Below are positions 7,240-12,003 of a stretch of 62,786 bases of DNA, in pieces. The stretch is from an uncultured Pelagibacteraceae bacterium (GTDB taxonomy: Bacteria; Pseudomonadota; Alphaproteobacteria; Pelagibacterales; Pelagibacteraceae), in NCBI GenBank assembly GCA_902603945.1, contig CACKWP010000005.1, forward strand, positions 1-62,786, written 5' to 3'. Made by a program: the position numbers and the translations under genes. The notes under the pieces were generated by a model. That model was not told the DNA's origin. It saw nothing but the letters and a program-made list of their open reading frames with translations, and ran no database searches. Position 1 is the first letter of the stretch; each line of letters starts with the position of its first letter.

Positions 7240-7380
7240 AGATTATTAAATAATTATAATTATTTAAATAAAAAATTATCCACACTTTTTAGTTGAGTGG
7301 TTTTAAATGTTCACGTTTTGATTCACTTTTGATTCACTAAGGGACTCAATTTACAACCCTAGATAGTGTTATCCACACGT
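7240..7380. other. DnaA-box / AT-palindrome / GANTC cluster
   Basis: Two perfect DnaA boxes TTATCCACA lie in the same orientation at 7276-7284 and 7369-7377. Just left of the first is an A/T-only stretch with a perfect 22 bp palindrome at 7246-7267 (arms TTAAATAATTA). Between the boxes is a tandem 11-mer TTTTGATTCAC (7316-7326 and 7327-7337), and GANTC sites fall at 7320-7324, 7331-7335 and 7343-7347. The right box lies inside the last codons of the MFS gene. The arrangement resembles a small replication-initiator binding region, but it could equally be the promoter/operator of the leftward gene at 7218. Confidence 0.45.
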
Positions 7381-8579: not shown

Positions 8580-9769
8580 TATTTTATATATTTAAGAGAT
8601 TTTTTAAGATCAGAAATTAAATCTTTAGGATCCTCTAAACCTATATGAAGTCTTACAATGTGTTCATCTTTATTAAAACGAAAGAAATGTCGCCCTTTAG
8701 TATATTCAGTTTGTTTTTTCAAATCTTGTAAAATTGCCAAACTTTCAAATCCTCCCCAGCTATATCCAATACCAAACAGCTCAAGAGAGTTTACAAATTT
8801 CATCACTAATGATTTTTTTTTACTTTTAATAACTATTGATAATAATCCAGTTGCACCAGAGTAATATTTTTTCCAAAGTTTATAGTTTTTGCTTGATGGT
8901 TCATATGGATAGAGAATTTCTTTTACTTTTTTTTGGTTTTTTAAAAAATCTATTACTTTTTTAGTATTCTCATAATGTTGTTTCAATCTTGTATCTAAAG
9001 TTCTTAAGCCTCTTATAATTAGGTATGCCTCGTCAGCAGACATTCTGTATCCTGAAAGTTTGTAAAAAAACATGATTTTTTTAAAAACTTTTTTATTCAC
9101 TGCTAATGACCCTCCCATTGCATCAGAATGGCCCGAGAAATATTTTGTAGCTGAAGAAAAAGACATGTCAAAACCAAGTTTTAAAGGCTTAAGATACAAA
9201 GGTGTTCCCCAAGTATTATCTAATAATGTGTAAATTTTTTTCTTCTTCGCTAAACTTACTATTTTAGATAAATCCTGAAATTCAAAAGTATTACTTCCAG
9301 GATTTTCAACAAGTATCAACTTGGTTTTTTTTGAAACCTTATTTTTAAGATCATCAAAAGACTCTGGATCATAAAAAATTGCCTTAACGTTAAATTCTTT
9401 TAATAATTTTTCAGAAATTTCCTTTGTTGGACCATATACATTATCTGAAACTAAAATTTCATCTCCTGGTCTGCAAATGCCCATGATTGCAAGGGCTACT
9501 CCCCCAAAGCCAGTACCAGTTAAAAAAACATGAAAAGCTTGCTCTAACTCTTTTAACATATTTTCTAGTTCAATGGTTGTTGAACTACCATATCGACCAT
9601 AACTATAATGACTTACTTTTTGATGGTTTTTAATTTTTTTTTCATGAGCATATAATTCTTGCATTGTATTAAATAAAATAGTGGATGCTCTTATTACTGG
9701 AGGGTTAGCTGATCTATTCGTGTTATCTTTTGTGGGGTGTTTTAAAAATGTGTTAATAGACTTTTTCAT
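8579..9769 (-). CDS. cystathionine beta-lyase-type PLP enzyme (Cys/Met metabolism family)
   Basis: A 396-residue fold-type I PLP enzyme of the trans-sulfuration family. The N-terminal HYSYGRYGSSTTIELE segment, the cofactor-contacting VFLTGTGFGGVALAIMG, and the Schiff-base lysine in SFSSATKYFSGHSD (around residue 205) are all present. Members cleave or join C-S bonds (cystathionine beta- or gamma-lyase, methionine gamma-lyase, homocysteine synthase). The GHSDAMGG segment after the lysine resembles MetC. It is first in a two-gene unit with the downstream MFS transporter. The exact reaction is not resolved. Confidence 0.8.
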   Translation of the reverse strand: MKKSINTFLKHPTKDNTNRSANPPVIRASTILFNTMQELYAHEKKIKNHQKVSHYSYGRYGSSTTIELENMLKELEQAFHVFLTGTGFGGVALAIMGICRPGDEILVSDNVYGPTKEISEKLLKEFNVKAIFYDPESFDDLKNKVSKKTKLILVENPGSNTFEFQDLSKIVSLAKKKKIYTLLDNTWGTPLYLKPLKLGFDMSFSSATKYFSGHSDAMGGSLAVNKKVFKKIMFFYKLSGYRMSADEAYLIIRGLRTLDTRLKQHYENTKKVIDFLKNQKKVKEILYPYEPSSKNYKLWKKYYSGATGLLSIVIKSKKKSLVMKFVNSLELFGIGYSWGGFESLAILQDLKKQTEYTKGRHFFRFNKDEHIVRLHIGLEDPKDLISDLKKSLKYIK

Positions 9770-9834
9770 AAAATAAGTGTATTTGAACTTTATATATAAT
9801 TTTACTAATTAAAATAAAATAAGGAGGCAAAAAT

Positions 9835-9918
9835 ATGGGATATCCCAAAAAACATCGCGGTAGAAGAAAAATTGGCTCAAAAAAGAGAAGAGCAAGAAAA
9901 AGAAATAAGAAAAAATAA
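9835..9918 (+). CDS. 27-residue highly basic small protein
   Basis: ATG at 9835 is preceded by a strong AAGGAGG ribosome-binding site, unusual in this window, at the right spacing. The frame encodes 27 residues starting MGYPKKHRGRRKIG and ending RNKKK before TAA at 9916-9918. More than half of the residues are Lys or Arg. Size and charge resemble tiny ribosome-associated proteins such as bTHX or the bacterial AURKAIP1/COX24-like family, but I see no firm match. It lies 14 bp before the membrane protein at 9933 and is divergent from the PLP lyase. Confidence 0.65.
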   Translation: MGYPKKHRGRRKIGSKKRRARKRNKKK

Positions 9919-9932
9919 TCAATAAAATTTTT

Positions 9933-10634
9933 ATGCGTGAAATAGCTCAAATAAGAAGGTTGAGTTTATGGATATTTTTTATTCCACTAATTGCAATAAA
10001 TCTTTGCTTATTTATTTCTCAAAATTATTCGTTATTGGAGAATACAATTTTTATTGTTGATCAAATTGGCAGATCAGGCTTTTCGATACCATATCTAGAT
10101 GGAAGTTTGTCAATCAGTAGAGCTTCTAGAACTTTCCCTCAGTATTTAATTTTTAAACCAGCAATGATTATAACTGCTGTAACTCTTTACTATTATTGGT
10201 CGAACAACAATAGTTTAGTAAACAAATTTAAATCTACAAATATTGATTATAAATTTAAAACCTTTGGAATTCTTTCAGCCATTTTTTTAGCTATTCACTC
10301 AATTTTTCTTGGTATAAAATTTGATATTCAAATTTATAAATTAATGAGACGTGTCGTTTTACTATTATTTATTATATTCGAAATTATTGCTCAGGGAATA
10401 CTAGTTTATCATTTCTTTAAAATTAAAGATAAAATTTCAAAATTTATAAACAAAAGAATATTAATTTTAAAAGCTTGTTTAGTTTCAATTTTAGCATCAG
10501 TAGCTATTTTGAGCCTACCAATACTTTTAAATAAAGGTAATACTCATTTCAAACATGCTCTTGAATGGAATTATTTTGTTGGAGTAATTCTGTTTTATTT
10601 ATTTACAAGATTTTTGTGGAAAAGAACCACATAA
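9933..10634 (+). CDS. polytopic membrane protein of unknown function
   Basis: A 233-residue protein with about six hydrophobic helices (near residues 11-29, 74-88, 110-128, 139-160, 178-199 and 211-228). Charged stretches such as KFKSTNIDYKFK and KIKDKISKFINKR lie between them. Topology loosely resembles Frag1/DUF998-like proteins, but I recognise no signature and leave it unassigned. It begins 14 bp after the 27-residue basic protein and would be co-transcribed with it. Its stop overlaps the end of the minus-strand structured RNA by two bases. Confidence 0.75.
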   Translation: MREIAQIRRLSLWIFFIPLIAINLCLFISQNYSLLENTIFIVDQIGRSGFSIPYLDGSLSISRASRTFPQYLIFKPAMIITAVTLYYYWSNNNSLVNKFKSTNIDYKFKTFGILSAIFLAIHSIFLGIKFDIQIYKLMRRVVLLLFIIFEIIAQGILVYHFFKIKDKISKFINKRILILKACLVSILASVAILSLPILLNKGNTHFKHALEWNYFVGVILFYLFTRFLWKRTT

Positions 10635-10802
10635 ATTTCCAGGCTTTCGCCTAGAAATTTAGTAGTTTTAGCTCGTCGTTTTAGGCGCTACCGCCAAGCC
10701 ATTTCGATGGACTATTCTAGCGCTACTAGGTCCACCTTTCTGCCCTTTAAGCTTGAACCTCTCGGTTTTTCCTTAAATGGCCAGTTAAGAGTTGCCTCTT
10801 AA
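10633..10802 (-). ncRNA. candidate structured RNA of unknown class, about 170 nt
   Basis: This gap is clearly richer in G+C than its surroundings and lacks a credible ORF. Read on the minus strand it folds into successive hairpins. A 5' stem UUAAGAG/CUCUUAA closes on GCAA (10785-10802). A long stem CUGGCC..UUUAAG / CUUAAA..GGGCAG encloses AACC-GAGA-GGUU. GGUGGAC pairs with GUCCAUC. Short hairpins CCAU-CGAA-AUGG and GGCG-GUAG-CGCC follow. A 3' stem AAAUUUCUAGGC/GCCUGGAAAUUU closes on GAAA (10633-10660). Three loops are GNRA only on this strand, and a C-A mismatch on the plus strand becomes a U-G pair here, so the minus strand is favoured. It does not match tmRNA, RNase P, SRP or 6S landmarks I know. 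Confidence 0.6.
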
Positions 10803-10872
10803 TTAATTAAATTAAATCATATATGAAAAAAATTGTTATCACTTAAAACGTGCAGATAATTTTAGCTGTTAA

Positions 10873-12003
10873 TTAAGTGGATAAATTTTTATTGTGGGTC
10901 TTATGTATCCACCCCCCTCCAAGCACTTTATCCCCAATTTTATCTTTTGAATAAAATACGCATGCTTGACCTGGAGAAATTCCAGTTTCTTTGTCTAAAA
11001 TTTCTACATTAGCAGTTGTTTCTTGTAAATCAATTTTAGCTTTTAAAAGCCTACCTGTTGACCTTACTTTAATGTGTATTATTTCTTTCAATTCTTTTTG
11101 CGATCCAAGAATATTTAGATCTCTCAACTTAATTTGTTTAACTTCTAAACAATCTTTGTTGCCAACAATTATTGTATTGTTGTCTGCATCTATATTTACA
11201 ACATATAATGGATTATTACTTGCTATTTTAATTCCCTTTCTTTGACCTATTGTGTAATTTATAATTCCTTCGTGTACTCCTATTTGGTTTCCTTTAATAT
11301 CAAGAATTTTCCCAGGCTTAAATGACTCTGGTCTAAATTTCTTTATTACAGAGGCATAATCTCCATTTGGAACAAAACAAATATCTTGGCTATCTGGTTT
11401 CGAAGCAACATTTAATTTTAATTTTTCAGCTATCGCTCTTGTTTCAGATTTATCTATTTGACCAAGAGGAAATCTAAGATAATCTAACTGTTCCTGGGTA
11501 GTACTAAATAAAAAATATGTTTGGTCTCTATTTTGATCTTTTGCTCTATACATGTTAGCGTGACCATTTACTTGAACTCTAGAAACGTAATGTCCTGTAA
11601 TAAGCGCATCAGCTTTTAAATCTTTTGCATATTTGAACAGATCTCTGAATTTAACAGTTTGATTACATTGAACACATGGTATTGGAGTTTCTCCTGCTGC
11701 ATAACTATCTATGAATGAGTCAATTACTTCTGATTTAAATTTTTTTTGATAGAATAAAATTTTATGATTAATATTAATATTTTCTGATACTCTTTTTGCA
11801 TCTAAAATATCTTGGCCAGCACAGCATTGTCTTCCCTCTTTTGATTTTTTAGCATCATCATATAGTTTAAGAGTAATACCTGTAACATCATAACCTTCTT
11901 CTTTCATCATTGCAGCCACAACAGATGAGTCAACACCTCCCGACATTGCCACAACAACTTTTGTCTCTTTTTTTGGTTTATTAATTCCTAGTGAATTCAT
12001 CAT
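10873..12003 (-). CDS. mnmA: tRNA-specific 2-thiouridylase
   Basis: A 376-residue enzyme that thiolates U34 of Lys, Glu and Gln tRNAs with ATP and relayed persulfide sulfur. Landmarks are the PP-loop [12 protein letters not shown] (about residues 19-30), the catalytic-cysteine region [14 protein letters not shown] (about 107-120), [17 protein letters not shown] with the second catalytic Cys, and the GQRKGI motif starting the C-terminal domain. Length is normal. It is divergent from the DUF3553 gene across a 36 bp gap. Downstream on the same strand, about 70 bp after its stop, lies the structured RNA. Confidence 0.95.

Follow-up and report, generated by a model that had tools for sequence, protein, structure and literature searches.

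What kind of gene occupies the G+C-rich island that separates mnmA from a convergent open reading frame in this SAR11 contig? The first-pass annotation of the window (i.e., the whole stretch of 62,786 nucleotides, from an uncultured member of the Pelagibacteraceae) had described a structured RNA, and the physical basis of that description is sound. G+C content is 0.45–0.46 in the 100-base windows at 10650–10799 and 0.16–0.39 in the remaining windows of 9500–12000, and no ORF of 40 or more amino acids lies between 10634, where the convergent ORF ends, and 10873, where mnmA ends, such that a G+C-rich island without a credible ORF is real. When folded, the minus strand of 10815–10620 reaches −70.4 kcal/mol (z = −7.52) and the plus strand −51.9 kcal/mol (z = −3.82), none of 200 shuffles being as good in either case. 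The minus-strand fold contains P1 (GCAA loop), P2 (GAGA), P3, P4 and a 3′ hairpin (GAAA), which are the five stems and three GNRA loops that had been read from the letters. The minus polarity proposed with them is backed by an Rfam match on that strand, a conserved promoter-like block and a terminator-like stem. The island had also been placed correctly, but its span of 10633–10802 was slightly short for a gene that extends from about 10809 to about 10620.

This RNA had been called unassigned, a label that no longer applies: there is a clear match to a known class, the very outcome that the annotation had named as telling against it. By cmscan, positions 10668–10809 of the minus strand match the IMES-2 family (RF02035) over the full model (1–141) with all of its stems, at 151.2 bits and thus far above the gathering score of 54.7, and this is the sole Rfam match at the site under curated cut-offs. 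The nested hairpins P1–P4 are all formed, with one non-standard consensus pair (two marks) flagged in the cmscan alignment. That the RNA was not a tmRNA, RNase P, SRP, 6S or riboswitch RNA had been judged correctly, in that none of these has an Rfam match here; 6S RNA (RF00013) matched neither in the window at gathering scores nor at 10550–10900 up to an E-value of 10. From its sequence and predicted structure, we regard membership of the window RNA in IMES-2 as practically certain.

To our knowledge, IMES-2 is a marine RNA family with no known function, whose discovery reportedly included transcription in marine samples. Our search of a limited literature collection returned no study devoted to it; the portion of the giant squid genome report that was available lists IMES-2 among non-animal RNA matches, possibly from environmental contamination (PMC6962438). 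To the family, the present analysis adds a gene unit (a promoter-like block and a terminator), a loop-loop pairing that the consensus line printed by cmscan does not show, alternative 3′ modules and a host assignment.

Conservation and covariation, for which the annotation had recommended a check, were both found among SAR11 relatives. From 67 loci with 52 distinct motif sequences, we built a main alignment (A1) of 44, leaving out near-duplicates as well as L052, which is truncated, and L059, which has unread bases; L090 had been dropped from the loci since its stretch stops inside the RNA. A1 was purposely enriched for low-scoring members and is therefore unfit for reading module frequencies. 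Across A1, 31 of 45 pairs changed on both sides and 92.7% of cells are paired (the six kissing pairs described below included), while one P4 position of the Rfam stem forms a standard pair in none of the 44 sequences. The features of the locus, all on the minus strand, are as follows.

10620–10809, minus: whole RNA gene, T-rich tail of the terminator included (ends inferred from the -10-like hexamer and the terminator-like stem)
10668–10809, minus: IMES-2 RNA, RF02035 model positions 1–141 (cmscan)
10866–10884, minus: conserved upstream block TTATCCAC..ATTNACA, overlapping the last mnmA codons (alignment of 64 distinct upstream regions)
10837–10844, minus: -35-like part of the conserved block CAAC.A.AAAGTGATA (upstream alignment)
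10816–10821, minus: -10-like hexamer TATGAT (upstream alignment)
10785–10802, minus: hairpin P1 with GNRA loop GCAA (fold, Rfam; 100% of A1 cells paired)
10740–10784, minus: hairpin P2 with an internal loop and a GAGA end loop (fold, Rfam, A1)
10706–10736, minus: hairpin P3, beginning of the swappable 3′ module (Rfam, A1, module comparison)
10718–10723, minus: kissing strand GCGCUA in loop L3 (pairs with L4, covariation)
10670–10700, minus: hairpin P4 (Rfam, A1)
10685–10690, minus: kissing strand UAGCGC in loop L4 (pairs with L3, covariation)
10620–10667, minus: terminator hairpin (GAAA loop) with T-rich tail, outside the Rfam model (fold, terminator scan)

Upstream of the RNA, the -35-like GTGATA and TATGAT are separated by 15 nt in the window copy; over the 67 loci the spacing is 16 nt in 31 and 15 nt in 6, the other 30 being unmatched by our search expression. 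A simple promoter scan, which covers spacers of 16–18 nt, did not list a promoter on the minus strand here, and since the spacer of 15 nt falls outside that range, the promoter claim rests on conservation. Downstream, a terminator-like stem (10661–10632) is followed by a T-rich tail on the minus strand, the hairpin and tail overlapping the end of the convergent ORF (9933–10634); within 10550–11000 there are two terminator-like sites, this stem and one on the plus strand, compared with 0.3 (sd 0.6) in shuffles. The island would thus represent a single-copy IMES-2 gene with a promoter and a terminator of its own, its product being about 190 nt long.

In the consensus line printed by cmscan, the loops of P3 and P4 are unpaired, and it is here that our structure departs from that line: covariation makes it highly likely that L3 and L4 are joined by a kissing helix, conserved through compensatory changes and at most 6 bp long. 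The core pairs take the forms GCGC/GCGC, GUGC/GCAC, GUAC/GUAC, GAAC/GUUC, GUUC/GAAC and GCAC/GUGC. Among the 44 sequences, alignment columns 93/133 are CG in 31, UA in 12 and AU in 1, and columns 94/132 are GC in 26, AU in 16 and UA in 2, with none unpaired at either position. Double-change cells number 31 against 9.1 (sd 2.2) in shuffles, a count matched in 0 of 500 and higher than in slid controls. A second alignment (A2), built from 96 loci that we chose out of 187 RNAs and with a structure annotation that holds nested stems only, gave 91 distinct rows with central pairs CG in 80, UA in 10 and AU in 1, and GC in 78, AU in 11 and UA in 2; its double-change cells number 26 against 3.2 (sd 1.6), again with 0 of 500 shuffles as high. 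Counted instead by pairs that show any double change, or by further pair types, neither alignment showed an excess over its 500 shuffles (for the 44 sequences, 485 and 495 shuffles were as high; for the 91 rows, 159 and 169).

Complementarity is also commoner between the two loops of one sequence than between loops of different cores. With L052, L059, L118 and L130 left out, the Watson–Crick run between an RNA's own L3 and L4 reaches at least 6 in 52 of 64 distinct combinations, the remaining 12 reaching only 4–5 consecutive pairs, as compared with 96 of 2154 when L4 is taken from another core. The exact four-base partner is missing from 4 of 43 distinct combinations in one loop-core group and from 2 of 4 in another (L049 was misread by the loop-core script), and at the two outer positions the kissing pair is lost in 2 and 5 of the 44 sequences and in 17 and 6 of the 91. 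Several core types cannot pair with themselves; an L3–L3 dimer would not account for them, whereas pairing between L3 and L4, either within one molecule or between two, would. The lowest-energy fold of the window copy pairs L3 and L4 locally and not together, so in this copy such local pairs are predicted to compete with the kissing form.

The two halves of the RNA appear to have different histories. We divided the sequences into forms A and B after inspecting them, with form B taking in diverged variants of two genera; between the two forms in the same genus, the P1–P2 half is 94.8% identical (mean of 20 pairs) and the P3–P4 half 46.0%, while the same form of P3–P4 compared between genera has a mean identity of 72.5% and a maximum of 89%. 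With a B-form relative, L040, the window RNA shares an identical P1–P2 half. Neighboring proteins follow genus rather than form: within a genus and across forms, MnmA is 79.6% and the product of the convergent ORF 72.2% identical, whereas between genera and within a form these values are lower, at 68.5% and 53.4%. In the window's genus, the three B-form loci also lie closest to each other in MnmA and in the product of the convergent ORF. On the best MnmA tree, which takes the 22 of 25 MnmA-bearing loci that are also in A1, a minimum of 7 changes is needed to explain form and of 9 to explain loop core, counts that are soft in that 6 of 19 inner branches are open; B as a single clade is rejected on this tree (p-AU = 1.5e-47). 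The commonest B pattern has an exact match in only 9 of 397 genomes. It is therefore very likely, as judged from these comparisons, that P3–P4 has been swapped as a module between lineages by recombination, independently of P1–P2 and mnmA. By eye, the terminator frequently travels with P3–P4; since the B module of L046 is followed by a terminator resembling the one in L032, an A-form locus, and the A module of L044 by one that is B-like, the exchange can apparently stop at P3–P4 alone.

How might such an RNA act? The explanation that best combines these observations, and toward which we incline with moderate confidence, is that IMES-2 is an independent gene for an Hfq-independent, protein-binding RNA with a lock between L3 and L4 and a swappable 3′ half. 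The comparisons support four hairpins P1–P4 in series, with L3–L4 pairing tying P3 to P4, and this lock would make of the two a rigid platform; the platform would bind a protein or protein complex in trans, and the constant P1–P2 half would serve stability or a shared partner. The RNA would then act as a regulator or scaffold without Hfq and not through antisense pairing, and its 3′ half is very probably replaced between lineages as a module through recombination. Protein binding itself is a serious possibility that we would place somewhat short of probable, and we reach it by exclusion rather than from a positive result. A more tentative extension is that the RNA has two parts, a constant P1–P2 and a P3–P4 kissing module serving as a specificity cassette, which is exchanged horizontally among SAR11 genera and whose diversity is kept by selection on what the module recognizes (e.g., a varying partner or attacker).

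The exclusion concerns base pairing with messenger RNAs. L3 and L4 carry a related motif, GUAG-NNC, and could be open to pair with target mRNAs, much as two loops of OxyS pair with fhlA; such short motifs are exposed in both loops, which stay partly unpaired in local folds. With Hfq-dependent antisense sRNAs, IMES-2 shares a promoter-like block and a terminator-like hairpin of its own. In contrast to those sRNAs, the loops of IMES-2 pair mutually: their cores change in step, as expected of self-pairing and not of conserved targets, and a module swap exchanges both together. Once the kissing pairs are counted, few conserved unpaired stretches in A1 would, by eye, suffice for an antisense seed. 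Moreover, and presuming that the models reach SAR11, at a threshold of E≤0.01 Hfq matched in 5 of 14 controls but in none of 26 SAR11 genomes, among them the genome of the window (76% complete); CsrA exceeded its cut-off in none of the 26, with two weak matches below it; and the Rfam 6S model at E≤1 matched in none of the 26 but in 6 of the 14 controls, Caulobacter among them. (Caulobacter is a control that matches both Hfq and 6S.) Because the loops covary mutually, the swap replaces both of them and matches to Hfq, CsrA and 6S are lacking, we favor protein binding over antisense action, which we consider unlikely.

The missing 6S matches invite the thought that IMES-2 takes the place of 6S RNA as a similar ligand of RNA polymerase, and the two are indeed both free-standing, structured and similar in length. 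Their architectures differ, though: 6S RNA is shaped as one long hairpin with an open central bubble, and IMES-2 as four hairpins in series. Near-complete SAR11 genomes without IMES-2 are, where searched, also without a 6S match, and we consider this role very unlikely.

Within the window's family, 204 of 297 genomes, from 12 of 14 genera, have IMES-2 in one copy each, and it is present in 72 of the 127 family genomes of at least 90% completeness; among 297 genomes drawn from the order (a draw that overlaps the family set), it occurs in 140, from 4 of 11 genera, both searches having used strict filters by which weak matches are lost. It occurs in none of the 14 control genomes. An exact pattern scan over named genomes gave at least 120 stretches, and among the matches listed all are Pelagibacterales, 119 of them labelled Pelagibacteraceae. 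By these genome counts and the pattern scan, the hosts seen are SAR11.

Some complete or near-complete SAR11 genomes are without IMES-2, and our own model (R1) found nothing in the complete ones. In one genus, all 11 genomes without the RNA have an empty site, where no more than 14 bases separate the end of the preceding ORF from the beginning of the ogt match. In the window's genus, MnmA is also missing: of eight genomes without IMES-2 (83–94% complete), seven have no MnmA match and the eighth a partial one, such that absence there is probably an assembly gap, as if the mnmA/IMES-2 region dropped out of these assemblies systematically. For the cultured strain HTCC1062, the accessible part of a table of intergenic regions lists no such RNA (PMC2704228), and this strain presumably lacks IMES-2. 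As for distant homologs, R1 gave three weak matches (E = 0.12–0.2) in 23 genomes lacking IMES-2, and over 385 genomes of the class it gave 3 matches, all in SAR11, in a search that is insensitive since 8 candidates were scored per genome.

The neighborhoods bear on whether the RNA might be a processed tail of the mnmA transcript or the leader of a following gene. Downstream of mnmA, as the annotation had placed it, is correct for the window but not in general: over the 67 loci, mnmA precedes the RNA on the same strand in 25 and an ogt-like gene follows it on the same strand in 32, while SelO is the neighbor in 3 loci, an SRAP-type gene together with a nuclease-type gene in 6, and one locus (L052) ends at a contig border with other ORFs only, each neighbor type being named by Pfam from one member. 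The first two figures are what a tail or a leader would call for, but neighbors vary by genus while the upstream block and the RNA stay constant (the first half of the block being looser in many ogt-type loci), no one gene lies downstream throughout, and in the window the ORF beyond the RNA is convergent and the terminator-like hairpin ends the RNA. With an upstream block common to different gene neighborhoods and a terminator-like hairpin, IMES-2 at this locus is very probably a free-standing gene and neither leader nor tail of mnmA, which also upholds the free-standing minus-strand RNA that had been suggested from the letters; either alternative seems to us most improbable.

Equally improbable, and argued from analogy with the tRNA and tmRNA genes that serve as insertion sites of mobile elements, is a role as an integration site, the swapped 3′ ends being what inserting elements leave behind. 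In its favor, the part that swaps is the 3′ half, and each of the 32 ogt-type loci has a recombinase-family gene (PF00589 by Pfam in the one member tested) at most 1.5 kb from the RNA. Yet 11 of 11 genomes that lack the RNA also have that gene close to ogt, and it was not seen at mnmA-type loci, to which the swaps belong. Four RNA patterns had no exact match in viral contigs, phage and plasmid records gave no match, and no second partial copy of the RNA occurs in the loci examined, save for recombinase matches due to a chimeric query, L118. In the first 900 bases of L118 (single-cell genome AG-365-E11), the 5′ half of IMES-2 is fused to a tyrosine recombinase gene, joining sequences that are otherwise close together but oppositely oriented; this is probably a chimera of single-cell amplification, and it was left out.

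Several other elements of the window deserve mention. The convergent ORF adjoining IMES-2 (9933–10634, plus strand) is hydrophobic, has no Pfam or NCBIfam match, and recurs next to IMES-2 in most mnmA-type loci. Before it lies a very basic ORF of 27 residues (9835–9918, plus strand; start MGYPKKHRGRR), likewise with no Pfam or NCBIfam match; comparable short ORFs, convergent to mnmA, follow mnmA by eye in the SAR11 loci L071, L073 and L074. A glycine riboswitch aptamer (RF00504; 42276–42361, minus strand, 69.5 bits) is a known element. Two perfect copies of TTATCCACA, which we take to be a DnaA-box-like motif, occur on the plus strand at 7276 and 7369, 93 bases apart, out of 5 in the 863 kb scanned. 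The conserved block upstream of the RNA likewise looks to us like DnaA boxes; a replication origin was considered and rejected, in that a noisy GC skew in two complete genomes (20 stretches of 20 kb per genome, about one third of each) did not put the RNA at the origin.

SAR11 is called the most abundant bacterial group in the ocean by several abstracts, and finding no match to Hfq or 6S, and none to CsrA over its cut-off, sharpens the question of how RNA regulation works in these bacteria. The kissing loop and the swapping of modules are the additions that merit the attention of specialists. By placing IMES-2 in SAR11, delimiting its gene and pointing to a contact between two of its loops, to modules that swap and to genomes that naturally lack it, the analysis turns what had been an entry in a list into a testable system.
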